Shown in pieces: positions 4,265-37,002 of a stretch of DNA of 64,000 bases. The stretch is from Olsenella profusa DSM 13989 (GTDB lineage Bacteria > Actinomycetota > Coriobacteriia > Coriobacteriales > Atopobiaceae): assembly GCF_030811115.1 (NCBI RefSeq), contig NZ_JAUSQK010000001.1, positions 2,356,001-2,420,000 on the forward strand. The letters run 5' to 3'. The translations under genes and the position numbers were made by a program. A model generated the notes under the pieces. It ran no database searches. It was given only the letters and a program-made list of their open reading frames with translations, and was not told the DNA's origin. Position 1 is the stretch's first letter. Every line of letters starts with the position of its first letter.

Positions 4265-4569
4265 ACCAACTGTAGCCCTTCTTCGGGCCGACTGGGAACG
4301 GCACGGGAAACGCTCACGCCCGGTGTACCGCTCGCCGAACGCAGGGGAACGGTCAGGGTGTATGTGCAGCTAAGACTATATCGAATCGGACGAAAAGCGA
4401 AGATGTGACATAGGGACGATAGGCTCCCCTCACCTCCTACCCTTCGTTCCACATACCAGGCGCACAGATGTTCCACACCAACTGGTATCAAGATAATATG
4501 CATGTTTTCGGTATCGCAATGGAGTACCGTCATCAGGGAGCATAGATGCGAGAGCACCGGGAGGACGCC

Positions 4570-5301
4570 ATGAGGATCATCCGCACCACCGACTACGACG
4601 ACATGAGCCGCAAGGCCGCCAACGTCATCTCCGCCCAGGTGATCCTCAAGCCCACGAGCGTGCTGGGCCTGGCCACCGGCACCACACCCCTGGGGGCCTA
4701 TAGGCAGCTGGCCCGGTGGTGCGAGCGCGGCGACGTGGACTTCTCACAGGTATCCACCTACAACCTGGACGAGTATCGCGGCCTCTCCCATGAGGATGTC
4801 CAGAGCTATCACCATTTCATGCGCGTCAACTTCTTCGACCACGTCAACATCGACCTGGCCAACACCCACGTGCCCGATGGCTCCAACCCCAACGTCAGGG
4901 CCGCCTGTGAGGCGTACGACCACATGGTGGCCGCAGCAGGCTACCCCGACCTCCAGCTTTTGGGCATCGGCCGCAATGGGCACATCGGCTTCAACGAGCC
5001 CGACTCCGTCTTTTCCAAGGGCACCCACCTGGTGAACCTCACCGAGAGCACCATCAAGGCCAACAGCCGCCTGTTCGACAGTCCCGACAACGTGCCGCGC
5101 CAAGCCTACACCATGGGCGTGCAGGCCATCATGTACGCCCGCGGCGTGCTGGTGATTGCCAGCGGGAGGGACAAGGCCAAGGCCGTGCGCGGCATGTGCC
5201 TGGGCCCTGTTGACCCGCAGTGCCCCGCCTCCATACTGCAGCTGCACACCAACTGCGTGGTCATCGCCGACGAGGCGGCGCTCTCGCTGTGCCCCCAGTA
5301 G
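4570..5301 (+). CDS. nagB: Glucosamine-6-phosphate deaminase
   Basis: A 243-residue enzyme converting glucosamine-6-phosphate to fructose-6-phosphate and ammonia, the step after NagA. Visible family motifs are 'VLGLATGTTPLGAYRQL' (phosphate loop), 'VSTYNLDEYRGL' with the catalytic Asp, 'GIGRNGHIGFNEP' with the ring-opening His, and the usual loop 'FSKGTHLVNLTEST'. The ATG at 4570 has GGGAGGA at a good distance; an in-frame ATG at 4546 lacks one. It is transcribed away from the GntR gene and nagA, under the operator between them. Length fits the short monomeric Gram-positive NagB type. Confidence 0.95.
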   Translation: MRIIRTTDYDDMSRKAANVISAQVILKPTSVLGLATGTTPLGAYRQLARWCERGDVDFSQVSTYNLDEYRGLSHEDVQSYHHFMRVNFFDHVNIDLANTHVPDGSNPNVRAACEAYDHMVAAAGYPDLQLLGIGRNGHIGFNEPDSVFSKGTHLVNLTESTIKANSRLFDSPDNVPRQAYTMGVQAIMYARGVLVIASGRDKAKAVRGMCLGPVDPQCPASILQLHTNCVVIADEAALSLCPQ

Positions 5302-5312
5302 CGCCCTACCGA

Positions 5313-5340
5313 GCGTGCAATCCACGTACAGATTGCACGC
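5313..5340 (+). terminator. Perfect 10-bp hairpin after nagB
   Basis: GCGTGCAATC (5313-5322) and GATTGCACGC (5331-5340) form a perfect stem with an 8-base loop, 11 bases after the nagB stop. There is no T-run after it, so it could be a weak terminator, an mRNA end stabiliser or an operator for the next gene. Confidence 0.45.
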
Positions 5341-5470
5341 ACCATGCTTGCCAACTGGGCAGACGTAGCCCAAGCTCACAAACGGACGAAGGATTGTGGG
5401 CTCGCGTCACATGCCTTCGACGTATGCCTCCCCTACAATGAGGATATGCACCGTATGCGAGTGGAGGCAC

Positions 5471-6229
5471 ATGGATACCGAGGAGACCGCGCTCGACCGG
5501 CTGCGGCTGGTAATGGGCAGCGAGGCGCTTGCGCGTGTGCAGGCCGCGCGCGTGATGGTCATCGGCTTGGGTGGCGTGGGATCAAACTGTGCCGAGGCGC
5601 TGGCACGTGGTGGCGTGGGGTCGCTCGTCCTCCTCGACCGCGACGTGGTGGCACCAAGCAACGTCAACCGCCAGGCAGTGGCCTACCAGAGCACCATCGG
5701 CCAGGAGAAGGCCGAGGTCATGGCCCGCATCGTGGCAGACGTCAATCCCACATGCGACGTCATCGCCCAGCGGGTCTTCCTCTCGAGGGAGGGGCTCCCC
5801 ACCACGCTTGCCACACTCCCCCGTCCAGACTACGTGGTGGACGCCATCGACACCGTCAGCCAGAAGCTCGTGCTTGCCCAGTGGTGCCAGGATCGGGACA
5901 TCCCCCTCATCAGCTCCATGGGTGGGGGCAACAAGCTCGACCCCACGCGACTGCGCTTCGCACGCATCGAGCGCACCTCGGGAGACCCCCTGGCGCGTAC
6001 CGTCCGCAAGGAGTGCCGCAGGCGCGGCGTCAGGGGACTCGAGGTGCTCTACTCCGACGAACGACCCCGTGAGCCTGAGGGGAAGGTACAGGCCATCGAC
6101 GAGGCAGGCCTCGTGCGCGAGGGTGCCTCCATCCTCGGTACCATGAGCTACATGCCACCCATCATGGGCCAGATGATCGCGGGACGCGTCATCTGCCGCC
6201 TTGCCGATCTCACCTGGGAGAACGCCTAG
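5471..6229 (+). CDS. tcdA: tRNA threonylcarbamoyladenosine dehydratase (TcdA/CsdL, ThiF/E1 fold)
   Basis: A 252-residue E1-like ATP-dependent enzyme. The nucleotide loop is 'VMVIGLGGVGSNCAEALARG' near residue 30, followed by 'LLDRDVVAPSNVNRQ' (adenylate and Arg finger region) and 'PDYVVDAIDTVSQKL'. TcdA converts t6A37 in tRNA to its cyclic hydantoin form. The ATG at 5471 is preceded by GGAGG; the frame is open further upstream without one. It is followed two bases later by a TatD-like gene. Related ThiF/MoeB proteins have Cys pairs for zinc that are absent here, which fits TcdA. Confidence 0.85.
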   Translation: MDTEETALDRLRLVMGSEALARVQAARVMVIGLGGVGSNCAEALARGGVGSLVLLDRDVVAPSNVNRQAVAYQSTIGQEKAEVMARIVADVNPTCDVIAQRVFLSREGLPTTLATLPRPDYVVDAIDTVSQKLVLAQWCQDRDIPLISSMGGGNKLDPTRLRFARIERTSGDPLARTVRKECRRRGVRGLEVLYSDERPREPEGKVQAIDEAGLVREGASILGTMSYMPPIMGQMIAGRVICRLADLTWENA

Positions 6230-6231
6230 CC

Positions 6232-7001
6232 ATGAGACTCGTTGACGCCCACGTGCACCTGGACTTCATGTCCAATGCCGCAGAGGTGGCCGCAGATGCC
6301 GCCCGAGACGGGCTCGGCCTCTATGCCGCCACGGTGACGCCCGCGGGCTATGACGCGGCCCATCCGGAGCTGGACGACGTCCCCAACGTGTGCCTTGCCC
6401 TCGGTCTCCATCCCTGGTGGGTCGCGGACGGGCGCTGCAAAGAGCGGGATGTCCGCCACTTCGAGGAGCTCGCTGGCCACACGCGCTGGTTGGGCGAGGT
6501 GGGCCTCGACTTCTCCGACACCCACACGGCACCCGACTCCCACGGACGCCAGGCAGCGGCCTTCGCGCGCGTCTGTGCAGCCGCTGCCCGGACGTCCTCC
6601 TCGGTGCTCTCCATCCATTCCGTGCGCGCGGCGGACACATGCCTCGACATCCTTGCCGACACGGGCTGCCTCGAGCGCTGCCACTGCGTGTTCCACTGGT
6701 TCAGCGATAGCTCGGACGAGCTGCATCGCGCCGTGACCTCAGGATGCTGGTTCTCCGTCAACGAGATGATGCTCGCCACCCGGCGTGGCCGCGAGTACGC
6801 CCGCCAGGTGCCGTTGGGGCGTCTGCTCACCGAGACGGACCTCCCTCCCCATGGGAGAGCACCCTTCTCCGCGCGGAAGATAGAGGCCTCGCTCGAGCGC
6901 AGCATCGCCACCATGGCACAGCTGCGCCACCTCGACCTCGATGACCTCCGGGACAAGGTGGCACGGAATGCGGAACGGCTCGTGCGGCAAGGCTCGTGGA
7001 G

Positions 7002-7005
<4 letters not shown>
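6232..7005 (+). CDS. TatD-family metal-dependent hydrolase
   Basis: A 257-residue TIM-barrel hydrolase. The opening metal motif is '[11 protein letters not shown]', the Glu ligand is in '[11 protein letters not shown]', a His in 'VLSIHSVRA', another in 'CHCVFHWFS', and the Asp in 'LLTETDLPP'. These are the TatD ligands in order. TatD proteins are 3'-5' DNA/RNA nucleases or deoxyribonucleases; the exact substrate cannot be told. It is coupled to tcdA (two-base gap) and its stop overlaps the stop of clpX on the opposite strand by three bases, leaving no room for a terminator between the convergent genes. Confidence 0.85.
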
Positions 7006-8321
<1,316 letters not shown>

Positions 8322-10709: not shown

Positions 10710-11753
10710 CTAGGGTGTCGGGCGCCCCTCCATGAAATCGATGACAACCTTGGAGGCCGAAGGGTGCCTGAGACACTCTTCGAGAGCTGTGACATCTTGA
10801 GCGTCGACAATCCTCAGGGGAAACGCCCTTGAGAGCTCACCAAAGCACCGTTCCATCTGCTGAACCGCCTCAGAGAAATCGCTGCGAAGAAACGACCTGA
10901 CGCCATAGATCCTATATTCATGCTCAAAGAGTGGACGTAGCCGCAAGGGTGTTTCATAGGTCTCTGGATATACCCCAAGAAACAGGAGCGTTGCTCCTGG
11001 GCGAGCGCATCTCAGACTTGCCTGAAGAGTCTTTGCCTGAGAAAAACCGACGCACTCAAAGAGCAAGTCATATTGCCCCACAGCCACCGAGGCAAGATCC
11101 TCGTACGACCCCATCGCCCGAGCCTGCAGGAGGTCAAGATAGGGCCACTCGCCACTACGTGTAAGAACGTCCGGCACCAAGCCCTGCCTATTCAGCTCGA
11201 ATACCAACAAACGAGCGATGTTTCCATCACCCATCACAAGCGGTTGCAGGTCTTCCTCAGAGTCACAGGCAAGCTCATAGGACATGTGCCTGGCCACCAG
11301 CGAGAGGCAAGTAAGCATGTACTCGGATGTTGATTGCCTTCGCGGGCAAAGGATGTCAGAACTGAATCCAAGCGCCGTTATGAAGTGTGAATATCTCTCC
11401 GCAAGCTCCTGCGTCTTTGACCAAGTGATATTCCTGCCCGTGTAGGCATCTATGTCACCCAAGACCAACTGAACCCGATACCCCGCCTCCTGAAGCATCT
11501 TGGCTTTGGCTATCTGCGAGACGGTTCCCATGTGAGGGCATCCGGACATGCCGACTCCCGTCGAGAAGAGAGTCTGGCCATCTGGGTCCAAAACAGCTTC
11601 CACATTGTAAGAGCAGCACCAAAGAGCTTGCTCATCAGCTCGATTCGCCAAGGCTGGCATCATCGGTACGGATGAAAACCCAACGGGATCATAGCCATAC
11701 TCTCGAATGATGCTCGCATAGTATTTTGAGTCAAAGCTCAGCACATCTCCCAT
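10710..11753 (-). CDS. Fusion of a class I aminoacyl-tRNA-synthetase-like domain and a dehydrogenase NAD(P)-binding domain
   Basis: A 347-residue protein of unknown function. Residues ~60-160 resemble the catalytic Rossmann fold of TrpRS/TyrRS: a HIGH-like 'SGCPHMGTVSQIAKAKMLQE' (His74, Gly76), then 'LVLGDIDAYTGRN' and 'ELAERYSHFITALGF'. No KMSKS loop or tRNA-binding domain follows. Instead residues ~172-345 look like the nucleotide-binding half of a medium-chain dehydrogenase: 'VMGDGNIARLLVFELN', 'YDLLFECVGFSQA', 'ARPGATLLFLGVY', 'YGVRSFLRSDFSEAV'; the zinc-binding catalytic half is absent. It starts inside the 3' end of an MFS transporter pseudogene, so they were probably co-transcribed. 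An amino-acid-activating or small-molecule biosynthetic role is only a guess. Confidence 0.6.
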   Translation of the reverse strand: MGDVLSFDSKYYASIIREYGYDPVGFSSVPMMPALANRADEQALWCCSYNVEAVLDPDGQTLFSTGVGMSGCPHMGTVSQIAKAKMLQEAGYRVQLVLGDIDAYTGRNITWSKTQELAERYSHFITALGFSSDILCPRRQSTSEYMLTCLSLVARHMSYELACDSEEDLQPLVMGDGNIARLLVFELNRQGLVPDVLTRSGEWPYLDLLQARAMGSYEDLASVAVGQYDLLFECVGFSQAKTLQASLRCARPGATLLFLGVYPETYETPLRLRPLFEHEYRIYGVRSFLRSDFSEAVQQMERCFGELSRAFPLRIVDAQDVTALEECLRHPSASKVVIDFMEGRPTP

Positions 11754-13005
11754 GGCGTACTATCCCTCCCCTCGACGCCCACAGCCAGCACAAGGGCAAG
11801 TAGGCTCGATGCACAGATACCCCCAAAGGCCGCATACCAAAAGGCCTCAGGCGCGACGATGAGCCTGTTGAAGACCAGGGTCCCCAGTGGCATGAGAAGC
11901 GTGGCTATCACGAAAACGCAGCTGAACGTCCTTCCCAAGTACGCTTCATCGACACTGGCCTGCAGGACGCTGAAGAACTGGATGTTGTAGAAGGTGAGCA
12001 GGACAGCAAACACAAGTATGCAGGCAAGCACGGCAGCAAATGCCTGCCACAGGTGAAGGAACGCGGGCAACAGGGCAAGGCTGAGGCCGCATCCGAATAG
12101 CGCAGCGAAGAGCGTGACCCTGGGGCCACCAAGCCGGTCGCCAAGAAGGCGGGTGAGGATGGCGCCAAGCACTCCACCCACCGATGACGATGTCAAGGGC
12201 TCGGCGTAAGCTGCGTCGCCTGCACCAAAGCTCATCTGCACGAATGGGGTCATGAGGTTGTATCCCGCGAGGAAGAAGTTGACCAGCGAGCTCATGAGCA
12301 GGAGATAGCGAACTGCCGAGGACCCACCAATGAACCTCAGACCCTCAACGAAGTCGCTGACGAACTGGCGAGGTGACGTGCGGCCCGCAGCTGGTACCTC
12401 AGCATGGGGTGCTGTCCTGAGCATGGAGTTCAGCAGTTCAGATGCGCCAAACGACATCGCATTGACGAGCAGGGCACCTTGCTCATGGCACAGGGTCAGT
12501 AACGCGGCGCTCAGCATGGGTGCCACCACACTCAGTACTTGTGTGCGGCAAGCTCAAGATGAGAGTTAGCGTTCGATATCTGTGACTTCCGAACGAGAAG
12601 GGGAAGTACCGAGTGATACGCGGGCAGGTAAAACCCACTGGCAGCACTGAGGAGCACATTTGCTGAGATGAGCGCGTAGACAAAGACAGGTGTGACAAAA
12701 AAATGCAGCGGCCACCAGGCAAACGAAGGCCGAGAGCATATCTGCGACCACCAAGATGCGCTTGCGATCGAAGCGATCGGCAACAACTCCACCCACGGGA
12801 TCAATGACGAGCGAGCAGACAGACTGACCAATCTGATAGATCCCCAGAAGGAACTGGCCAACGGCACCCTGGCTGGCGAACCAGAGGCTGTTCGCATAGT
12901 CGAAGAATATGTCGCCAAAGCCACCGAGACCCTCCCGCAGATGAGAAAGGCCTGGTTGGCCATCTCGCGTCTAGGGCGAGCATCACCCCCTGAACGCTTC
13001 GTCAT
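11738..13005 (-). pseudogene. Major facilitator superfamily transporter, broken by several frameshifts
   Basis: Across three frames a ~420-residue MFS transporter can be reconstructed. The N-terminus reads 'NQAFLI', then needs a shift to enter 'LREGLGGFGDIFFDYANSLW' and the cytoplasmic loop motif 'GGVVADRFDRKRILVVADM'. A second shift occurs at a run of seven T near 12698, giving 'FVTPVFVYALISANVLLSAA'. A third lies at about 12538, after 'SHLELAAHK', before 'VLSVVAPMLSAALLT'. The last ~260 residues (11738-12529) are intact, with about six helices. Three separate shifts make decay more likely than one sequencing error. It would have exported or imported the product or substrate of the overlapping fusion enzyme. 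Confidence 0.75.
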
Positions 13006-27300: not shown

Positions 27301-28692
<1,392 letters not shown>

Positions 28693-28796
28693 CTACCCTG
28701 TAGAGAATAGTGAACCGCCCCCGTTGCCATCCGACTTCCTCGTGCGGGAAACAAACTGTATACGCGCTCGCAAGCCACGCGGAACATGGCCGTGCG

Positions 28797-29324
28797 CTAG
28801 AGCGCGTATTCGTACACCCTCAGCTTCGTGCCGCCGATGTCGTCGTACGGGACGTGGCACGTGCCGGCACAGCGAAAGCCAAAGCTCTCGTACAGCCAGC
28901 TTGCAGCCAGGTTATGCGGCATGACGTCAAGATGGATCGCACGCTTGCCCCACCTTTGGGCGATGCGCACCGCCTCGTCGAGCATGCGCCGGGCGATGCC
29001 CTGCCGCTGCAGGGAGGGGTCGACCGCCAGCAGGTGCAGGACGCCCACCTCATCGGCAGGGACGTCCCTCTCCCACGTGACGGGCGCGTAGGCCTCGTCA
29101 TCATGGCGCTCGAGCAGCATGGACGACACGACGCGCCCGTCCAGCGTCCCCACGAAGAGGGTGCCCTCCGAGAGGGCCGCAGCGAAGTCAGCCTCGCTCG
29201 GATAGACGCCCATGTGCCACTCGGCGCTGTAGGTACTGGTCCTTTGCGCGTCACAGACTGCGGCATAGAGCTGCCAGATGGCGGCAAGGTCATGGGTGGT
29301 TGCCGGACGGACCTCGTCAATCAT
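28797..29324 (-). CDS. GNAT-family N-acetyltransferase
   Basis: A 175-residue acetyltransferase. The acetyl-CoA loop is 'LHLLAVDPSLQRQGIARRML', with the R/Q-x-x-G-x-A signature, preceded by a strand and followed by 'AIHLDVMPHNLAASWLYESF', typical of GNAT motif B with the Tyr that may serve as acid. The start at 29324 follows AGGAGG. Substrate cannot be predicted. It stands alone between gdhA and the tRNA-Gly/tRNA-Pro pair. Confidence 0.85.
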   Translation of the reverse strand: MIDEVRPATTHDLAAIWQLYAAVCDAQRTSTYSAEWHMGVYPSEADFAAALSEGTLFVGTLDGRVVSSMLLERHDDEAYAPVTWERDVPADEVGVLHLLAVDPSLQRQGIARRMLDEAVRIAQRWGKRAIHLDVMPHNLAASWLYESFGFRCAGTCHVPYDDIGGTKLRVYEYAL

Positions 29325-29402
29325 GGGTGCCTCCTCGGTAGCGCGACGTGGGCGACACATGGGGGCCATGGCCTCGTCAGGCCATGGCCCCCGCAAGCGT
29401 CA

Positions 29403-29478
<76 letters not shown>

Positions 29479-29481
29479 ACG

Positions 29482-29558
29482 TGGTCGGGGTGACTGGATT
29501 CGAACCAGCGACCCTCTGCTCCCAAAGCAGATGCGCTACCAAGCTGCGCTACACCCCG
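29482..29558 (-). tRNA. tRNA-Pro (anticodon TGG), island attachment site
   Basis: A 77-base cloverleaf with acceptor CGGGGTG/CACCCCG, anticodon loop T-T-TGG-G-A, T-loop GGTTCGAATCC and encoded CCA. Its 5' 55 bases and 19 bases upstream (29504-29577) recur at 34929-35002 on the far side of a 5.4-kb island. The -10-like TATACT is at 29573-29578, and a TTGCCC 17 bases further upstream lies inside the inverted repeat, so part of the present promoter is supplied by the island. Confidence 0.95.
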
Positions 29559-29577
29559 GAGCCGCTCCCAAAGTATA
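29504..29577. repeat. Left copy of the 74-bp direct repeat (attL-like)
   Basis: Matches 34929-35002 with one difference (A at 29571, G at 34996). It covers tRNA-Pro positions 1-55 plus 19 upstream bases. Together with the right copy it frames the island. Such a duplicated tRNA segment is the normal trace of site-specific integration at a tRNA gene, though no integrase gene is present in the island now. Confidence 0.75.
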
Positions 29578-29587
29578 GGGGAGCTCA

Positions 29588-29881
29588 CTGGTGAGGGCAA
29601 TAACCCTTCGAAAAACGCTCACCGACCGTGTCACTAGAGCCTCTCGCAAGAGGATCGCGTGGAGGGGCGCCCCCGAGGACGTCTGACCTTGGCTTCTGGC
29701 ATGGACACACGTAATCGGGTCGCGAGCAGATCCCATCGCAAGGCGGTAACCATCGTCGCTCGCAAGCTCTGCCACGCCATATTCGTTGTAATGCGCGACC
29801 AAAGGCCATACGACTCAGATCGCGCACGATCGCGGCTTTTCGTCCCCAAGTAATTATGTTGCCTAATTATGTCTCCGTTAT
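29588..29881 (+). mobile_element. Left arm of the ~290-bp inverted repeat; tail of an IS110-like transposase
   Basis: Pairs with 34639-34933. 29595-29871 matches the complement of 34650-34926 without a difference that I can see; each side then adds a few bases with a single mismatch or indel. Reading inward, the frame ending at 29853 contains 'RKAVTIVARKLCHAIFVVMR' and then Asp-Gln-Arg-Pro-Tyr-Asp, which resembles the extreme C-terminus of IS110-family transposases. The inner end carries ATGTTGCCTAATTATGT, the start of the permease gene found at the right arm, here abolished after ten codons (MLPNYVSVIK). The rest of the transposase is absent. Confidence 0.6.
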
Positions 29882-30121
29882 AAAGTAATGGCGTTTAGCT
29901 CGTTGTAGTGTCCTGGAGCATCATTCAGCTCGCATAGCGTAGTCGAGCGCTGGATGAGTCCCTCTCATCGACCTTGTGCTCCCGGCAGCATCCGAAGCCG
30001 CGGGGGCGGTATGCTCGTGCTTAAGTCCAAATTGTGCGCTCATTCCGCCTGTGATATCTCTACAACCATCTATAGAGGCTTGCTCTATCCATGAGGGCTT
30101 GTAGTTTGAGGAGGTCACGGA

Positions 30122-30283
30122 ATGGAGAAGGAAAAATACGGCTTGCTCACGAACGAGGAGATTGACGAGATTTCTCTTGGCGGCATAGAGGAGGAGCCCG
30201 TCAGCGAGGCCTCCGCCGCGCAGTTTGCTGCGGGCGCCGCTGCAGGGGCCGCCGCGCTTGCGGCATGCGAGCCAGCATATTAG
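30122..30283 (+). CDS. Small Ala-rich peptide with a double-Gly-like leader (candidate RiPP or bacteriocin precursor)
   Basis: A 53-residue peptide too short for ordinary gene finding, but with an excellent ribosome site (GAGGAGGT at 30107-30114, seven bases before ATG). The N-terminal half, 'YGLLTNEEIDEISLGG', is acidic and ends in Gly20-Gly21 with hydrophobics spaced as in export or modification leaders (one residue longer than the classical double-Gly motif). A linker 'IEEEPVSEAS' is followed by 'AAQFAAGAAAGAAALAACEP' and a final Ala-Tyr. The C-terminal half is almost only Ala and Gly, with one Cys. It precedes an M50 protease gene and shares an island with two ABC transporters. Not assignable to a known family. 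Confidence 0.6.
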   Translation: MEKEKYGLLTNEEIDEISLGGIEEEPVSEASAAQFAAGAAAGAAALAACEPAY

Positions 30284-30315
30284 TCATGCATCCGAGCATC
30301 CACAGAAATAGGGGG

Positions 30316-30345
30316 GCCGTCCTCCGCGTCAAAGCGGGGGGCGGC
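30316..30345 (+). promoter_or_regulatory. GC-rich hairpin between the peptide gene and the protease gene
   Basis: GCCGTCCTCCGC and GCGGGGGGCGGC pair over 12 positions (with three G-U pairs in RNA) around a six-base loop. It begins 33 bases after the peptide stop and has no T-run. In RiPP clusters a stable structure at this place often protects precursor mRNA and limits read-through into the downstream genes; that role is inferred. Confidence 0.55.
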
Positions 30346-30367
30346 ACTATCTGAGATAGCGAGCAAA

Positions 30368-31285
30368 ATGAGCGAAGCAGGCGTGTCCAACAGCTGCGTG
30401 TATTACGCCAATGAGGGCGGGGGCTACACTGTATTTGTAAAGAAGACTAAAAAATCGTACATTATTGATAACACGCAGTTTGAGTTCTTGTTGAGGTTTT
30501 TCCAACAAGAAGAGGACGTAGGACCTTATTCATCGGAGGAACTTGCATTGCTCAACCAAGCCACTGCTCCTGGAATATTACCTAACTCTAGTCCAGAGGA
30601 AATGCCAACAGGTTATAGATTATATGAATGTGATCGCTTCCTAGAGAATAAATTGGCAACAAAAATTATTCGCTTCGCCGTAACATTCCTTAGGATACCA
30701 TTTCTTGCATTATCATTAGCAAGGGCATGGATATTAGCGCTGATTTCAGATAGAGTATATGTATTAGGCGATACATGGAATTCATTGTCTGCATTTGTAC
30801 TTTGCTTTCTGATTGGTATATCGATATTCAGTTCTATCCATGAACTATGCCATGCATTAATTGCCCGTTATCATGGAGCACATATTCCGGAAATAAGTGT
30901 GCAGGCGTCTAACGGCAGAGCACCCTTTCGCACATATGTTATTGGAATGGCCAGAAAAAGTTTAGGTGCAAAAATAGAATACTACGCTGGTGGTATTAAT
31001 GCGCATTGCTTGTTGGCAGGAATTAGTCTGCTGCTGTGGTTAATTTCCTTGCAAACCGCTTTTTTATCTTTCTTCTGTGTCAATATATTTCTTGGCTCAG
31101 TCAACACAATGGCTGTTTCTCCCCTTACGGATGGATACAAAATAGCAAACTGTATATCCGTGAAAACAAAATCTAAAGTATCAAGTACTCGAAGATGTTT
31201 GCATATGCGAATTGCTGTTTCCTGTTGCTCTATTGTCCTATTTGTATTAGGAGTGGGATATGTTTTCAGCTCGGTACGATTCTAG
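30368..31285 (+). CDS. M50-family intramembrane metalloprotease with a possible PqqD/RRE-like N-terminus
   Basis: A 305-residue membrane protein. The zinc site is His158-Glu159-Leu-Cys-His162 inside a helix 'FLIGISIFSSIHELCHALIA', and the second motif is Asn246 to Asp255, 'NTMAVSPLTDG', the site-2-protease pattern. About five membrane helices are visible. The first ~70 residues are soluble: 'GGGYTVFVKKTKKSYIIDNT' and 'FEFLLRFFQQEEDV' resemble the PqqD-like fold used to bind RiPP leaders. This is uncertain. YydH of the Bacillus YydF epipeptide system is an analogous peptide-processing M50 protease, but no radical SAM gene is present here. Much AT-richer than its surroundings, so recently acquired. 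Ends eight bases from a convergent ABC gene. Confidence 0.75.
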   Translation: MSEAGVSNSCVYYANEGGGYTVFVKKTKKSYIIDNTQFEFLLRFFQQEEDVGPYSSEELALLNQATAPGILPNSSPEEMPTGYRLYECDRFLENKLATKIIRFAVTFLRIPFLALSLARAWILALISDRVYVLGDTWNSLSAFVLCFLIGISIFSSIHELCHALIARYHGAHIPEISVQASNGRAPFRTYVIGMARKSLGAKIEYYAGGINAHCLLAGISLLLWLISLQTAFLSFFCVNIFLGSVNTMAVSPLTDGYKIANCISVKTKSKVSSTRRCLHMRIAVSCCSIVLFVLGVGYVFSSVRF

Positions 31286-31293
31286 ATGCGTCA

Positions 31294-32463
31294 TTATCTT
31301 GCAAACATCAGTCGTTCGCTTTCAAACAGGCGTTCGAGGACGAAGATGCCAGCGACAGCATAAACGAAATTACTGATGATACAGGTAATCAGGGTTGCGA
31401 TGTTGAACTCAAAGGACAGAATACAGATCATCGCCTCGACGCCGTTGTACAGGGGGATAAGATAGTATCCTAGCGCCTGCTGCGGCTCTCCTCCGGCCAT
31501 GCCGAGTAAGCCGATGCCCATAACCAGAACCATCGCCGGTGCCAGGTACGTCTGCGCCTCTTTGGTGGTTTTCGCAAACGCCGATATGATCATAATCATG
31601 ACTACGATGAGCACGGTGAGCGACAGCACTACGAGGGCGGTCAGCCCATACTCAGCAGAGCCATACACGCCAAAGTTAGCGCTTCTTTGCATAATAGTAG
31701 GGAAGCTGGCGAATATCCCTATCGCACTCGAAATCGCTATGGTCAAACCTATCAAGGAACAGGCGAGCGACTTCCCCCAAGCAATGTGTCTACGTTTGAT
31801 CGGGGTGGCGAGAAGCGTGGCCAGAGTGCCCCTTTCCTTCTCGCCGGAGATTGCCTCTGTCGTCACGGACATGCATGAGCTGAACACCAGAATGAGAAGC
31901 ATGAACGGTATGAGAGACACCGACATGAACCCCGTCTTGTCGCGCGGTGTTGCAAGGTCATAGCTGTCCTCGCCAGCGTTCACGTCGAAGCAGTTCACCA
32001 TAGATGACTCGAACGCATCAAGGAATGTCTTCGTCGCCTCGAATGCCTTGAGGGATTTTGAATCGTCCGAGTTGTAGAACACATTGACCTGCGGAACGCC
32101 TCCAGTGGTTTCGTACAGGCGGAAGGAGGATATCTGGTCATCGAAATCATTGGGAAAGACAACCAGCGCGTCGTAATCTCCCTCTTGTATCCGCTTATGC
32201 ATATCATCACGACTGGGCAGCGAATCCAAAGTTATCAGCGCTATCTGTCTCGGGTTTGCCGCCAACCTGACACTTTCCGGCAGGTTCATAACCGCAAGTT
32301 TCACCGGCTCACCGTCATCCTTGGGTTTGTTTATGATGTTACCCATGATCGTCCACATGCTGAAGATCAGGACTCCGGGCAGAACTACAGCGAGGACGGC
32401 CGACACTTTGCCGTTGATGAACCGGGCGATCTCCTTCTTGAAAATCAGAAACGTACTTCTCAT
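31294..32463 (-). CDS. ABC-2 type permease (NatB-like)
   Basis: A 389-residue membrane protein with one N-terminal helix ('VSAVLAVVLPGVLIFSMWTI'), a large extracytoplasmic domain (~50-195), and five C-terminal helices, the layout of NatB and of many peptide or lantibiotic-type exporters. The motif 'ISGEKERGTLATLLATPIKR' between helices is characteristic of the ABC-2 family. Its ATG overlaps the stop of the preceding ATPase gene (ATGA), so the two are coupled. In the island context it may export the small peptide or give self-protection. Confidence 0.85.
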   Translation of the reverse strand: MRSTFLIFKKEIARFINGKVSAVLAVVLPGVLIFSMWTIMGNIINKPKDDGEPVKLAVMNLPESVRLAANPRQIALITLDSLPSRDDMHKRIQEGDYDALVVFPNDFDDQISSFRLYETTGGVPQVNVFYNSDDSKSLKAFEATKTFLDAFESSMVNCFDVNAGEDSYDLATPRDKTGFMSVSLIPFMLLILVFSSCMSVTTEAISGEKERGTLATLLATPIKRRHIAWGKSLACSLIGLTIAISSAIGIFASFPTIMQRSANFGVYGSAEYGLTALVVLSLTVLIVVMIMIISAFAKTTKEAQTYLAPAMVLVMGIGLLGMAGGEPQQALGYYLIPLYNGVEAMICILSFEFNIATLITCIISNFVYAVAGIFVLERLFESERLMFAR

Positions 32464-33245
32464 TGTTGAGCCACCTGCCGCCCATCTCGATGATCGTAGA
32501 GCCCGAAAAAGACCGATTCCAGGGACTCCGAGGCCGTCATTTCGGCAAGAGGGCCACATTGCGCCATCTTACCGTCGATGATGATTCCGATTCTGTCACA
32601 AACGCGCTCGGCCAGTTCGAATATGTGGGTTGACAGCAATATTGTTTTCCCTCTCTCTTTGAGTTCGAGGAGGAAATCGGTAACCACTCTGGCGGCAATC
32701 AAATCAAGCCCATTTGTTGGCTCGTCAAAGATGATGACTTCAGGGTCACTCGCAATCGAGATGACAAGTGACGCTTTCTGCTTCATGCCCGTCGACAAGT
32801 CGGCTATCTTCGTCTGCGCGAAGCTCCCAATCCCGAACCTGGAGAACAGCTCCTCCTTGCGCCTGTTCCGGATTACGGAGTCTATGTCATGCAAATCGGA
32901 GAAGAAGTCGAAGAGGTAATCAGGGGTAAAGACCTCCTCGAGCCTAAGCTCGCTTGTCAGGAACCCTATCCTCTTTCGCACCTCAACTGGGCTGGCTACC
33001 ACCGATCTACCACAGACCCGCACATCGCCCGAATCCGGCTTAATGAGGGTCGCCAGTATCCTCAGCGTCGTGGTTTTGCCGGCGCCATTTGGGCCGAGCA
33101 GGCCGAATATCTCCCCCCTGTCAACCGAGAAGGAGAGATCCTCGACAGCGATCTTCCTTCTCGACTGCACACCCAGCTCTCTGCGCTGCTTCCTGGAAAG
33201 TGGGTAGCTCTTCTTCAGCTCTGACACCTGTATCGGGTCTTGCAT
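32460..33245 (-). CDS. ABC transporter ATPase (NatA-like)
   Basis: A 261-residue ATPase pairing with the NatB-like permease. Walker A 'GLLGPNGAGKTTTLRILATL', signature 'LSTGMKQKASLVISI' (S-T-G-M in place of S-G-G-Q, as in NatA), Walker B 'VIIFDEPTNGLD', switch His in 'LLSTHIFE'. Overlaps the permease start by four bases. Probably part of one transcript running leftward from the right inverted repeat: permease, ATPase, ATPase, permease. Confidence 0.9.
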   Translation of the reverse strand: MQDPIQVSELKKSYPLSRKQRRELGVQSRRKIAVEDLSFSVDRGEIFGLLGPNGAGKTTTLRILATLIKPDSGDVRVCGRSVVASPVEVRKRIGFLTSELRLEEVFTPDYLFDFFSDLHDIDSVIRNRRKEELFSRFGIGSFAQTKIADLSTGMKQKASLVISIASDPEVIIFDEPTNGLDLIAARVVTDFLLELKERGKTILLSTHIFELAERVCDRIGIIIDGKMAQCGPLAEMTASESLESVFFGLYDHRDGRQVAQQ

Positions 33246-33310
33246 ACCTCATACCCCTCTCTTGCTCTTCCCATCGGCACAACGGCTGCAGCAAAGTTCA
33301 GCAAGTCTCC

Positions 33311-33988
33311 TCACATGAAACACCTCTTGTACATGTTCTCCGCTTTCACGTCTCTCGGGTTAAAATCAGCCACAATTACTCCTTCGTCGAGGAAGATGAC
33401 CCTATCGGCAACCTCGTCAATGAAATCGAGGATGTGACTCGAGATCAGGACAGTACATCCCCGCTGCTTCGCGCGCAAAACGTGCTCCTTGAGGGAGATG
33501 GTGGTCATTATATCTATGGCGTTGAGAGGCTCGTCAAGGAGGATGAGCCTGGGATTGCCCGCGAAGGCGCATGCTATGGATACGCGTTTGGCCATACCTT
33601 GGGAAAGTCTACTAATCTTGGTATCGGCAAAATGGCCACAGCCGAAGCTCTTCAGATGCCCATCTATCTCGCCTGCCGAAAGCCCGAGATCGCGCATCCC
33701 GGAGTCAAACGCGCAGAACTCACGCGGGGTAAAGGACGGGAAGCAGAAGGGCTCCTCGGGAAGATATCCGATGGTGCCCCTCTCGATATCCTGGAGGTTC
33801 GCGCCGTCCAGTACCCACGACCCTGCATAGTGCTCGACGGTTCCGGCGATGATACCGAACAGAGTAGACTTGCCCGCACCGTTCGGGCCAACAATGCCAC
33901 AGACCTCACCGTCGGCTGCCCCGAAATCGACAGGCCCTACGCCCATCCCACCTGCATAGTGTTTGACGACCTGTTCCAACTGTATCAT
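33311..33988 (-). CDS. ABC transporter ATPase (second island transporter)
   Basis: A 225-residue ATPase: 'GIVGPNGAGKSTLFGIIAGT', signature 'LSQGMAKRVSIACAF', 'LILLDEPLNAIDI', switch His in 'LISSHILD'. It begins in the last codons of the membrane protein gene (stop and start overlap as ATGA), with GGAG six bases upstream of the ATG at 33988. The short length and partner-permease arrangement resemble bacteriocin immunity or peptide ABC exporters. Confidence 0.88.
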   Translation of the reverse strand: MIQLEQVVKHYAGGMGVGPVDFGAADGEVCGIVGPNGAGKSTLFGIIAGTVEHYAGSWVLDGANLQDIERGTIGYLPEEPFCFPSFTPREFCAFDSGMRDLGLSAGEIDGHLKSFGCGHFADTKISRLSQGMAKRVSIACAFAGNPRLILLDEPLNAIDIMTTISLKEHVLRAKQRGCTVLISSHILDFIDEVADRVIFLDEGVIVADFNPRDVKAENMYKRCFM

Positions 33989-34665
33989 CTGTATCTCCAG
34001 ATGCGTATAGTGACGATAGTTCCGTAGACAAGGGGGATCACTGAGATAGCGGGTAGGAGCCCAAAGAGGAACGTCCACAGCGATGTCACGCGGTGCTGTA
34101 CGAAAAACTCGCCCATCACAAAGGACCAGACAAAACCGTAAGCAAATGCTCCAAGGCATGCGGCGAGCATGGGAAGAATTTGGGAGGAAGAGGAGAGGGC
34201 GCATGACGTTATCGCCACAATGAGCAACAGGACACCGGCCATCAGCGCTTTCACACGAGCTGCCTCCCACGTAGCGACCCTGTAGAATCTCCTTGCCATT
34301 CTAAAAGCCCCATCATTTTCTGCCACAGAGAAGTCTGCGAGGAAGAAAGCGCAGATGACCTTGCATGCGGTATAGGTTGCAAAAGGGCTGGCAGAAACGA
34401 GCAACATGACAGTTAGAATAGGAACGCAAACAACAAGGGTACCCACGAGATCCGCTTTGCTCGTTTTTTTCAGAATGCCATAGGAAAGTGCCATGGACCT
34501 GCCCCTCAACGCAATAGCACGAAAGGGGCCCGACCGCTTCCGACAAGATGCCGATGCGCCTTTCGGGAAAAACAGTATCGACAGGCCCCCTAGGACAATC
34601 GCGATAAGGGCCAGCAGGGCGCAAGCGGAAAGCGCCGGATAACGGAGGACATAATTAGGCAACAT
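33985..34665 (-). CDS. Integral membrane protein, permease partner of the second island ATPase, possibly 5'-truncated
   Basis: A 226-residue protein with about six membrane helices (for example 'ALLALIAIVLGGLSILFF', 'LMAGVLLLIVAITSCALSS', 'FLFGLLPAISVIPLVYGTIV'). No ABC-2 signature is obvious, but coupling to the following ATPase identifies it as its membrane subunit. The first six codons lie inside the right inverted repeat and no ribosome site precedes the ATG at 34665, so the original 5' end may have been cut off by the IS-like sequence. An internal start at Met59 is possible. Confidence 0.65.
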   Translation of the reverse strand: MLPNYVLRYPALSACALLALIAIVLGGLSILFFPKGASASCRKRSGPFRAIALRGRSMALSYGILKKTSKADLVGTLVVCVPILTVMLLVSASPFATYTACKVICAFFLADFSVAENDGAFRMARRFYRVATWEAARVKALMAGVLLLIVAITSCALSSSSQILPMLAACLGAFAYGFVWSFVMGEFFVQHRVTSLWTFLFGLLPAISVIPLVYGTIVTIRIWRYR

Positions 34666-34933
34666 AATTACTTGGGGACGAAAAGCCGCGATCGTGCGCG
34701 ATCTGAGTCGTATGGCCTTTGGTCGCGCATTACAACGAATATGGCGTGGCAGAGCTTGCGAGCGACGATGGTTACCGCCTTGCGATGGGATCTGCTCGCG
34801 ACCCGATTACGTGTGTCCATGCCAGAAGCCAAGGTCAGACGTCCTCGGGGGCGCCCCTCCACGCGATCCTCTTGCGAGAGGCTCTAGTGACACGGTCGGT
34901 GAGCGTTTTTCGAAGGGTTATTGCCCCCACCAG
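34639..34933 (-). mobile_element. Right arm of the ~290-bp inverted repeat; tail of an IS110-like transposase
   Basis: Mirror image of 29588-29881, reading inward (leftward). It contains the same transposase-like C-terminal frame (34862 to 34668 on the minus strand, ending in 'RLFVPK'), then the start of the permease gene. Its outer five bases overlap the right copy of the tRNA-Pro direct repeat. Identity of the arms implies a recent duplication or ongoing gene conversion. Confidence 0.6.
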
Positions 34934-35002
34934 CGACCCTCTGCTCCCAAAGCAGATGCGCTACCAAGCTGCGCTACACCCCGGAGCCGCTCCCAGAGTA
35001 TA
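34929..35002 (-). pseudogene. Right copy of the 74-bp direct repeat: truncated tRNA-Pro (attR-like)
   Basis: Holds tRNA-Pro bases 1-55 (34929-34983) and 19 upstream bases with TATACT (34998-35003). The 3' 22 bases of the tRNA are missing, replaced by island sequence, so no functional tRNA can be made. The flank beyond it probably represents the original tRNA-Pro promoter (TTGTGC, 17 bases, TATACT). The stretch 34666-35108 contains no gene otherwise. Confidence 0.75.
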
Positions 35003-35108
35003 AGATATCGAGACTCCGAGCACAACAACGCTCGCCGAGACGCATCAGCCGCCGCATCCCACAGAAGGGTGCACGGCAACCATACCCCCGTACCCCCACC
35101 ACGTCCTT

Positions 35109-35297
35109 TCAGCGCATCCGTGTGTGGATGTTGAGTAGGAGCGCCGCAAGGAAGCACGCGAACGCGACCACATGGTCGGCCAGAAGCAGCGGATGACTGC
35201 CGAGCACCAGCAAAGTCGCCAGCGCCAGTACCGTGCTGACGCTGGCAAACACCAGGCACAGCACCGTCAGCAGGTGCAGCCTGCGCTCCCTATCCAT
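35109..35297 (-). CDS. Small two-helix membrane protein
   Basis: A 62-residue protein with two membrane helices, 'LHLLTVLCLVFASVSTVLAL' and 'LADHVVAFACFLAALLLNIH', a charged start (MDRERR) and a charged end (HTRMR). The ATG lies two bases after the ptsI stop, so it is probably translated by coupling. I do not recognise the family; a link to ptsI is only positional. Confidence 0.55.
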   Translation of the reverse strand: MDRERRLHLLTVLCLVFASVSTVLALATLLVLGSHPLLLADHVVAFACFLAALLLNIHTRMR

Positions 35298-35298
35298 C

Positions 35299-37002
35299 TC
35301 ACTTTGCGGCAGCCTGCAGCGCAGCCTTCACTCCAGCGGCGGTCTTGAGGGCCATGACCTTCTCGGTGAGGGCGTCCGCCTCCTCCTTGGTCCACTGGCT
35401 GATGATGCGGCGCGTGCGCAGGATGGACGGCGCGCTCACGGAGAACTCGCCTAGGCCGAAGGACAGCAGCACGGGGATGAGCAGCGGGTCGGCCGCAGCC
35501 TCGCCGCACATGCCAACCATGATGCCGGCCTCGTTGCCCTCGGCGATGATGCGCTTGAGCGAGCGCAGGACGGCAGGCTGGTAGACCTCATACAGGTAGG
35601 CGACGCGCTCGTTGCCGCGGTCGGCGCACATGGTGTAGCCGATGAGGTCGTTGGTGCCGATGGAGAAGAAGTCGCACTCGGCTGCGAGGTCATCGGCGAT
35701 GAGGGAGGCGGCGGGCGTCTCGACCATGGTGCCCACCTCTACGTCCTTGTTGTAGGCAACGCCGCGCGCATCGAGGTCGGCTTTGCACTCCTCGACGAGC
35801 GCCCGTGCCTGGCGAACCTCGTCGATGGAGGTCACGAGCGGCAGCATGATCTTGATGTCACCGAATGCGGAGGCGCGGAGCAGGGCCGTGAGCTGCACCT
35901 TGTACTGTTCGGGATTGTTGAGGCAGTAGCGCACCGCACGGAAGCCCATTAAGGGGTTATCCTCCTTCTGGAGGTTCATGTACGGAATCTCCTTGTCGCC
36001 ACCCACGTCGAGCGTGCGGATGATGACCGGCTTGCCCTTCATGCGCAGAGCGACCTTCTGGTAGGCAGCAAACTGCTCGTCCTCGCTCGGGAGCTCGGTG
36101 GCATCCATGAAGAGGAACTCGGAGCGGAAGAGGCCCACGCCCTCGGCGTCATGCTCGGCGGCGCTGTTGGCATCGTCGGGGTTGCCGATGTTGGCAACCA
36201 GGAGCTTGGACTCACCATCGGCCGTCACCGTGGGCTTGCCGCGGTAGGACTCGAGGGCCGCCTTGTCGTCCGCGTAGGCCTTGGCTTTCGCACGATAGGA
36301 CTCCAGCTCGTCCTTGGTGGGCTTGGCGATGACGTCGCCCGCGCCACCATCCACGATGACCATGTCGCCGGTCTTGATGTTCTTGGTGGCCTCCTCCACG
36401 GAGAGCACCGCGGGAATCTCGAGCGCGCGGGCGATGATGGCGGAGTGAGACGTGCGGCCACCGGTCTCGGTGACGATGCCGGCGACGTTCTTCTTGTCGA
36501 TGTCAGCCGTCATGGAGGGGGTGAGCTCATGCACGACCACGATGGAGTTCTCTGGGAGCGTGGAGAGGTCCACCACCTGCTTGCCGAGGAGGTCGGCCAG
36601 AAGGCCGGTCTTGACGTCTGCCACGTCGGCGGCACGCTCGCGGAAGAGGGGGTCATCCATCTGGGAGAACATGGTACAGTACTGGTCGTAGGCCTCGCTC
36701 ACGGCCTGCTCGGCGCACATGCCGGCGTCGATGGAGCCACTGACCATGTCCTTGATGCCCTCGTCCTCCGCAAACTCTATGTGAGCGCCCATGATGGCGG
36801 CGGCCTCCTCGCCGACGCTCTGCGTCATGCGCTCGATCTGGTTGTTGGTCTGGCTCACGAAGAGCTTGAGGGCGGCCTCGTAGCGGGCCTTCTCCTGCTC
36901 GGTATCCTCAGGGACGCTGGGGGTAAAGGAGAGGTCGGGAGCAACCGCCACCTGCGCCACACCGATACCGAAGCCGTCAGAAGCATTGACACCCTTGAAC
37001 AT
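35299..37002 (-). CDS. ptsI: Phosphoenolpyruvate-protein phosphotransferase (PTS enzyme I)
   Basis: A 567-residue cytosolic kinase that takes phosphate from PEP and passes it to HPr for sugar uptake. The phosphorylated His is in 'TETGGRTSHSAIIARALEIP' near residue 190; the PEP-binding barrel has 'GVGLFRSEFLFM', 'IIRTLDVGGDKEIPY' and 'FFSIGTNDLIGYTMCADR', with the catalytic Cys in 'IMVGMCGEAAAD'. It lies 74 bases after fruK on the same strand. No HPr gene (ptsH) or EII gene is in the window. Confidence 0.96.
   Translation of the reverse strand: MFKGVNASDGFGIGVAQVAVAPDLSFTPSVPEDTEQEKARYEAALKLFVSQTNNQIERMTQSVGEEAAAIMGAHIEFAEDEGIKDMVSGSIDAGMCAEQAVSEAYDQYCTMFSQMDDPLFRERAADVADVKTGLLADLLGKQVVDLSTLPENSIVVVHELTPSMTADIDKKNVAGIVTETGGRTSHSAIIARALEIPAVLSVEEATKNIKTGDMVIVDGGAGDVIAKPTKDELESYRAKAKAYADDKAALESYRGKPTVTADGESKLLVANIGNPDDANSAAEHDAEGVGLFRSEFLFMDATELPSEDEQFAAYQKVALRMKGKPVIIRTLDVGGDKEIPYMNLQKEDNPLMGFRAVRYCLNNPEQYKVQLTALLRASAFGDIKIMLPLVTSIDEVRQARALVEECKADLDARGVAYNKDVEVGTMVETPAASLIADDLAAECDFFSIGTNDLIGYTMCADRGNERVAYLYEVYQPAVLRSLKRIIAEGNEAGIMVGMCGEAAADPLLIPVLLSFGLGEFSVSAPSILRTRRIISQWTKEEADALTEKVMALKTAAGVKAALQAAAK

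Follow-up and report, generated by a model that had tools for sequence, protein, structure and literature searches.

What is made by a gene for a small, Ala/Gly-rich peptide that lies beside a gene for an M50-type membrane protease and a run of ABC transporter genes, and does such a system work without a modifying enzyme? We address this question for a locus in the window, by which we mean the whole 64-kb stretch of DNA that was analysed. The locus had been described before in a sequence-only reading, whose individual claims are taken up below where the evidence bears on them. The arrangement appears to be undescribed: no matching description was recognised among the papers listed in the open-licence literature.

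A peptide gene on a small mobile island

The features of the locus are collected in Table 1. The peptide ORF is directly preceded by GAGGAGGTCACGGAATG, and its product is MEKEKYGLLTNEEIDEISLGGIEEEPVSEASAAQFAAGAAAGAAALAACEPAY (P0002). Acidic residues mark the first half of the 53-residue sequence, which holds the leader region (MEKEKYGL...EEID); residues 30-49 comprise 15 Ala or Gly residues plus the sole cysteine, C49; the tail contains a GxxxG motif, and the C-terminus reads ...EPAY, with Tyr as the last residue. The small gene with a strong ribosome site, an acidic leader carrying Gly-Gly, and an Ala/Gly tail with a single Cys, as seen in the sequence-only reading, is therefore confirmed, and the gene is intact. 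The hydropathy of the tail reaches a maximum of 1.35 over 19 residues, below the membrane-segment threshold of 1.6 used here, which counts against a simple transmembrane reading.

The hairpin reported between the peptide and protease genes is likewise real: the 84-bp spacer folds with -34.6 kcal/mol (z -3.4), and 2 of 200 shuffles are equally stable. As no T-run follows the hairpin on its 3' side, it does not qualify as a classical terminator. A ribosome site comparable to that of the peptide gene is missing at the protease start; protease output is thus expected to lie below peptide output.

Table 1. Coordinates of the features of the locus, in window positions.
Feature	Position	Strand	Remarks
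Left 74-bp direct repeat	29504..29577	.	tRNA-Pro 5' part plus upstream bases; whole tRNA here
Inverted repeat, left arm	29585..29873	+	289 bp, 99%; repeat comparison
Shine-Dalgarno hexamer AGGAGG	30109..30114	+	7 bases 5' of the peptide ATG
Precursor-like peptide, 53 aa	30122..30283	+	MEKEKYGL leader, Gly-Gly 20-21, Ala/Gly-rich tail, one Cys
Spacer with GC-rich 12-bp hairpin (30316-30345)	30284..30367	+	between peptide and protease
M50-type membrane protease, 305 aa	30368..31285	+	HELCH...PLTDG; N-terminal domain of ~90 residues, fold unproven
ABC-2 permease (NatB-like), 389 aa	31294..32463	-	profile matches
ABC ATPase (DrrA/NatA-like), 261 aa	32460..33245	-	profile matches
Second ABC ATPase, 227 aa	33311..33994	-	57% identical to an L107 protein (genome G040, same genus)
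Membrane protein, 226 aa, in the place of a second permease	33985..34665	-	first 18 nt inside the inverted repeat
Inverted repeat, right arm	34648..34936	-	repeat comparison
Right 74-bp direct repeat	34929..35002	.	truncated tRNA-Pro copy

The peptide and protease genes lie inside an insert of 5,425 bp (5.4 kb; 29578-35002) at tRNA-Pro, which is absent from G039, the second genome of the species, where the flanks are present without it; window positions 28001-29577 and 34929-37000 align to positions 6620-5044 (99.9%) and 5117-3046 (99.3%) of L040, with an overlap of 74 bp. The insertion anatomy is unusual: 74-bp direct repeats, placed at the 5' end of tRNA-Pro, immediately enclose a pair of near-perfect 289-bp inverted repeats. 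Among 5 genomes of the genus the 289-bp arms occur only at the two island ends, a 25-mer taken from them is in no viral contig, and no integrase or recombinase gene was recognised by inspection of the island ORFs. Searches of plasmids and phages with the island DNA returned only short tRNA or ABC-gene pieces, covering 1-2% of the query among the matches listed, and Rfam recognised only tRNAs at gathering score. A defence system was considered and rejected, as padloc matched just the two ABC ATPases. A promoter-like match (9/12) for tRNA-Pro at 29572-29600 places its -10 element in the direct repeat and its -35 element in the inverted repeat of the island, in a scan that found 3 sites against 4.4 expected; the island may thus supply part of the tRNA-Pro promoter.

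All four transporter genes are minus-strand genes and converge on the peptide-protease pair. At L107 (genome G040, same genus) there is a similar run of four transporter genes, three of whose proteins are 58%, 49% and 57% identical to those of the island; the listed ORFs of L107 include no HExxH frame and no such peptide. In L107 this double ABC-transporter run (4403-8180) has a circularly permuted order and is flanked by a transposase-like ORF on one side and a putative secreted protein on the other; by inspection, genes for an HTH regulator and an ABC exporter follow beyond the transposase. The 226-aa membrane protein was found only in its own genome among 140, and in no plasmid. It is possibly truncated N-terminally at the inverted repeat, perhaps without the first third of its counterpart, to judge from an alignment that is colinear and non-significant (score 59, shuffle maximum 79).

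The base composition of the island is uneven. The best two-breakpoint fit sets a segment of 39% GC (30425..31430) against 55-58% around it, and its left edge falls inside the protease gene, near codon 20. GC3 is 0.36 for the protease gene, 0.70 for the peptide gene and 0.59-0.68 for the ABC genes; within the protease gene it is 0.80 for codons 1-20 and 0.33 for the remaining ones. Given this contrast and the break within the gene, protease and peptide may be of different origin. With the GC jump in the protease gene, the convergent ABC genes and a second permease that is possibly cut, the island is a mosaic; the cassette of peptide, protease and transporters that it carries is nonetheless real, small and mobile.

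Related peptides are encoded beside YcaO genes

A search of 121 genomes of the family with the peptide (E <= 0.1) gave a match in 7, including its own. Three of these matches (G001, G130, G083) were set aside as chance, being parts of long open frames (675, 225 and 430 residues). The other three genomes have 55-residue frames in G117, G051 (twice) and G120, with E 1.5e-3 to 1.9e-3 and 48% identity. The relative, MEKKYGLMLQEELDNATILGEEICETYEEATSASAGAAAIGCAVAASFAA (P0003), is preceded by GGAGGGAGGAGACAATG; it has a MEKKYGL leader and an Ala/Gly-rich tail that contains one of its two Cys, but Gly-Gly is absent. The window peptide aligns to it with a score of 75, where shuffles average 28 and reach a maximum of 51 (0 of 2000 attain the score), and the leaders by themselves with a score of 51 against a shuffle maximum of 47 (0 of 2000). 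That other genomes of the family encode a relative argues that the peptide ORF is more than a chance frame. A pattern scan of 160 sequences (about 1.0 Mb, copies included) found only peptides of the P0002 and P0003 types. In viral contigs, 600 and 33 stretches were checked for the peptide with none confirmed, and of at least 120 stretches with the MEKKYG DNA pattern, none of those listed has an Ala/Gly-rich tail; P0003 was found in no plasmid or phage.

At L155 the related peptide is part of a one-strand run in the order YcaO, peptide, ABC ATPase (DrrA-like), ABC-2 permease and M50 protease (PF02163, 6e-8, above cut-off). The YcaO protein (P0004) has 613 aa and is full-length (PF02624, 2.4e-44); its nearest NCBIfam model is the S12-type YcaO, with 179 bits, short of the cut-off of 700. 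No further enzyme was recognised in the gene run of the relatives. The run, which occupies 5348-9784 of L155 (G051:C1, about 2.208-2.212 Mb), is itself a candidate for an undescribed RiPP cluster. Three genomes from two genera together hold four near-identical copies of it. Where L153, L154 and L156 align to L155, they are 99.2-99.8% identical to it, so that all four loci represent a single recent mobile element; the co-occurrence of peptide and protease thus rests on two independent cases. Not every copy is complete: the YcaO gene is in two frames at L154, the locus L156 is disrupted, and at L153 the similarity starts inside YcaO, 128 bases from the first base of the contig. The cluster DNA of L155 was found in no plasmid. 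With the YcaO protein as query, 23 plasmid records were found, the best 10 of the 23 being 24.8-29.4% identical and two annotated as S12-type YcaO, and none was confirmed in viral contigs. In the 64-kb window (tblastn, E <= 1) and in two other stretches of its genome no YcaO was found.

An M50-type protease with distant relatives

The sequence-only reading had named the product of the neighbouring gene an M50 protease with HELCH and PLTDG motifs. This holds: both motifs are present, as HExxH and distal Asp of the M50/S2P clan, in a membrane protein with hydrophobic segments, and the protein matches Pfam Peptidase_M50 with E 5e-4 and 19.9 bits, short of the curated cut-off of 27.2. In profile comparisons its M50 part reaches P 1.7e-11 against 20 S2P-type and P 7e-7 against 29 daptide-protease-type sequences. 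The weak Pfam match and the profile comparison together point to a protease of the M50/S2P clan.

Its relatives are remote. In the family, the only one of 140 genomes with a match at E <= 0.001 is its own; in the class, 10 of 396 genomes have one at E <= 0.01, its own included, the 9 others being weak S2P/M50 matches; in the phylum, 31 of 396 do at the same threshold, again with its own, and the 30 others, likewise weak S2P/M50 matches, score 14.8-22 bits. The S2Ps at three class loci with inspected ORFs (L031-L033) are presumably SpoIVFB-like. No relative was confirmed in plasmids or phages, in 6 stretches of viral contigs, or in 50 stretches of genome contigs retrieved by the protease's own 8-residue patterns; PDB sequences gave one chance match (E 0.32), and a fold search with the whole protein nothing significant. 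A degenerate DNA pattern for HExxHA...PxxDG[YF], which at its start covers just one of the two His codons, retrieved 1 viral and 4 genome stretches, with no M50 gene recognised in their ORF lists. Across the family, class, phylum, plasmid, phage, viral and contig searches no close relative thus came to light.

The M50 protein encoded with the related peptides has 209 residues and is without the N-terminal domain of ~90 residues. By BLASTP it does not match the window protease (E 0.93), although the raw alignment of the two beats 300 shuffles. They are of the same kind, on distant branches, and correspond by role and not as orthologues. The related peptide sought in other genomes does co-occur with an M50 protease, in another gene arrangement.

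The N-terminal domain of the protease

The proposal that the N-terminus of the protease is a PqqD/RRE-like domain, able to bind the leader, finds no support in its sequence. Residues 1-96 match no family of Pfam or NCBIfam listed at E up to 10, a range in which the HMMER filters discard most matches above E 0.1. For comparison, M50 proteins with a match to the daptide-protease model at E <= 1e-15 supplied N-termini for a profile. Such proteins occur in 53 of 396 genomes of the phylum (over the model cut-off in 2 of 396); the profile took 29 of 30 fetched loci, leaving out L132, where there is no usable frame. Against these 29 N-termini hhalign gives a probability of 0.2%, and in global alignment 51 of 60 shuffles are as good. 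For the daptide proteases an RRE is described in PMC10036551; the other profile members, selected by their match to the model, may carry one too.

A single-sequence AlphaFold model of residues 1-99, with a mean pLDDT of 55, has the order E-E-E-H-H-H. Three strands followed by helices is the order of the RRE fold. Foldseek matches of this model to the PDB are non-significant; the list has 5why_B, a sactipeptide enzyme, at rank 3 and complexes of TbiB1 with leader peptide (5v1v_A, 5v1u_A/B) at ranks 14, 32 and 44. VIA-align 2 listed no RRE entry. The N-terminus may or may not be an RRE/PqqD domain: sequence comparison does not favour it, and the low-confidence model has the right order of strands and helices.

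Likeness to known peptide systems

YcaO-dependent RiPPs (azoline, thioamide, amidine) have a short precursor with a conserved leader, and in the relatives of the window peptide YcaO lies directly upstream and the ABC exporter and protease downstream. The window precursor is homologous to one encoded beside YcaO, with 0 of 2000 shuffles attaining the score, whereas the window island is without the YcaO that the relatives' loci possess. By its peptide it is thus kin to a YcaO-associated precursor; by its gene content the island is not a YcaO cluster.

The epipeptide gene set, YydFGHIJ, comprises a small peptide, an M50 protease and an ABC transporter. The island has these likewise, but the radical SAM epimerase is absent among its six proteins (peptide, M50 and four transporter proteins). 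Elsewhere in the same genome (L075:8767-11743; G000:C1, about 1.9688-1.9717 Mb), genes for an ABC ATPase, a membrane protein, a radical SAM enzyme and an M50-type protein stand in a row that we take to resemble epipeptide (Yyd) loci; no obvious precursor ORF lies upstream of it in the 11700-12150 stretch. PMC10885120 reports that loss of the epipeptide M50 gene did not fully stop production.

Daptides, matured with an RRE-dependent intramembrane peptidase (DapP/MpaP), share with the island an M50-type peptidase, a helix-forming peptide and ABC transporters, as described in PMC10036551. The window protease, however, scores 14.4 bits against the DapP model NF041824, which has a cut-off of 300; the same paper gives an invariant C-terminal Thr for the daptide precursor where the window peptide ends in Tyr; and genes for the oxidative decarboxylase, aminotransferase and methyltransferase are absent among the six island proteins. 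The decarboxylation step of daptides depends on Leu(-7) and Met(-4) of the leader, again according to PMC10036551; in our own reading, the window peptide would have Ile14 and Ile17 at -7 and -4 if cleaved after Gly20.

For TMcins, PMC13252029 describes leader removal by an S2P-clan protease and ABC export, the latter shown, of a helix-bearing peptide. Their protease TmcP belongs to DUF3267 (PF11667), for which no match was listed with the window protease, either whole at E up to 1 or in parts at E up to 10, a range in which the HMMER filters discard most matches above E 0.1; two conserved Cys form a disulphide in TMcins, whereas the window peptide has one Cys; a DsbA-like or escort gene is absent here, and in hydrophobicity the window peptide falls short of a clear membrane helix. 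Leader proteases of the S2P clan or M50 type act in daptides, epipeptides and TMcins alike (PMC10036551, PMC10885120 and PMC13252029). By analogy, the island may work like these systems, in that a small peptide and ABC transport go together with a protease of the M50/S2P clan; it lacks defining features of each.

Double-glycine class II bacteriocins, finally, resemble the window peptide in a leader ending in Gly-Gly (G20-G21) and in a GxxxG motif in the tail, and differ from it in that the start of its core is acidic. A C39 search of its genome gave 0 matches at E <= 0.01, whereas 8 of 14 control genomes were positive, and the relative peptide has no Gly-Gly. The Gly-Gly of the window peptide is thus probably not a C39 site, which leaves the adjacent M50 protein as the obvious candidate for the leader protease.

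Discussion

The best explanation, which we hold with moderate confidence, is that the island is a horizontally acquired secreted-peptide cassette with leader cleavage by the M50 protease and NatAB-type transport. From the genes, the island, the relatives of the peptide and their neighbourhood we infer the cleavage, export and activity of the product as follows. The leader (MEKEKYGL...EEID) would be recognised, the tail being Ala/Gly-rich and moderately hydrophobic; the M50-type membrane protease would remove the leader at the membrane, at or near Gly20-Gly21; the NatAB-type ABC transporter would export the product or protect the producer; and the product probably serves as a signal or as a bacteriocin-like peptide active on membranes. 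The intact peptide gene, its strong ribosome site and the intact catalytic motifs of the protease were counted in favour, as were the related peptides, the gene run of L155, the C39 search without a match and the precedents among daptides, epipeptides and TMcins; the distance between the two proteases, the single element behind the four related loci, the low hydropathy of the tail, the mosaic island and the lack of a close protease relative in the searches count against it.

The peptide family is probably a RiPP family, as its other known members are encoded between YcaO and ABC plus M50 genes, and the window copy is a branch of it without a YcaO of its own. This modifies the idea of an exporter-protease peptide system that has no modifying enzyme: the combination of peptide, M50 protease and ABC transporter does recur in other genera of the family, but there with a YcaO, so that the phrase applies to the window island alone, where the absence of the enzyme may be a secondary loss. 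In all likelihood the product is thus a secreted peptide, either of RiPP type or unmodified, that loses its leader to the M50 protease; the island would be either a variant of a YcaO cluster without the YcaO or what rearrangement has left of such a cluster. A bolder form of this proposal, which we consider rather unlikely, is that peptides with a MEK(x)KYGL leader and a Cys-bearing Ala/Gly tail are an undescribed Coriobacteriia RiPP family, made with a stand-alone YcaO together with an M50 leader protease and an ABC exporter. The island would then be a branch naturally free of YcaO, its M50 protease carrying a leader-binding domain of its own and acting on an unmodified precursor.

That the island is such a remnant in the strict sense, a YcaO-peptide-ABC-M50 cluster which lost YcaO and transporter parts and has ceased to turn its peptide into an active product, is unlikely. 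YcaO is present in the relatives and was not found in the 64-kb window, the GC break falls inside the protease gene, the second permease is possibly truncated at the inverted repeat (a weak point), the second genome of the species is without the island, and damage is also seen in the relatives' copies, one having YcaO in two frames, one starting inside YcaO near a contig end and one being disrupted; yet peptide, protease and 3 of the 4 ABC genes are full open frames, and ribosome site and catalytic motifs are intact. It is quite improbable that the peptide is modified in trans before the island M50 cleaves it, whether by a YcaO from another part of the genome or by the radical SAM enzyme encoded at the second M50/ABC locus (G000:C1, about 1.969-1.972 Mb). 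The leader is conserved with the YcaO-associated relatives and the radical SAM/M50/ABC locus does exist in the same genome, but no YcaO was found in the window or the two other genome stretches, and nothing ties the radical SAM enzyme to the window leader.

Peptide and protease might also be unrelated neighbours, in which case recombination would have introduced the M50 protein as a stray site-2 protease with a regulatory role and no action on the peptide; their difference in GC3 (0.70 against 0.36) and the closer fit of the M50 part to S2P-type than to daptide-protease-type sequences would agree with this. We consider it very improbable in view of the shared strand, the 84-bp spacer and the M50 protease that accompanies the related peptide too, in another gene arrangement. 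An ordinary double-glycine bacteriocin of class II type, cut by a C39 peptidase-exporter, is hardly credible: the Gly-Gly leader end and the GxxxG motif speak for it, and against it stand the C39 search, which found none in the genome where more than half of the controls have one, the relative without Gly-Gly, and the hydrophobic leader positions of the window peptide, which we take to be one off the C39 consensus.

The secreted-peptide cassette thus remains our preferred reading, and its link to an undescribed-looking YcaO peptide family was unexpected; at the level of sequence, the link would draw on two independent instances and a mosaic island. If the peptide family represents real RiPP chemistry, it would add a YcaO-M50-ABC architecture in Coriobacteriia, and the pair of YcaO-plus and YcaO-free loci would allow the contribution of YcaO to an Ala/Gly-rich peptide to be tested. 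If true, the reading would also widen the evidence for M50/S2P-clan proteases as general leader peptidases of small exported peptides.
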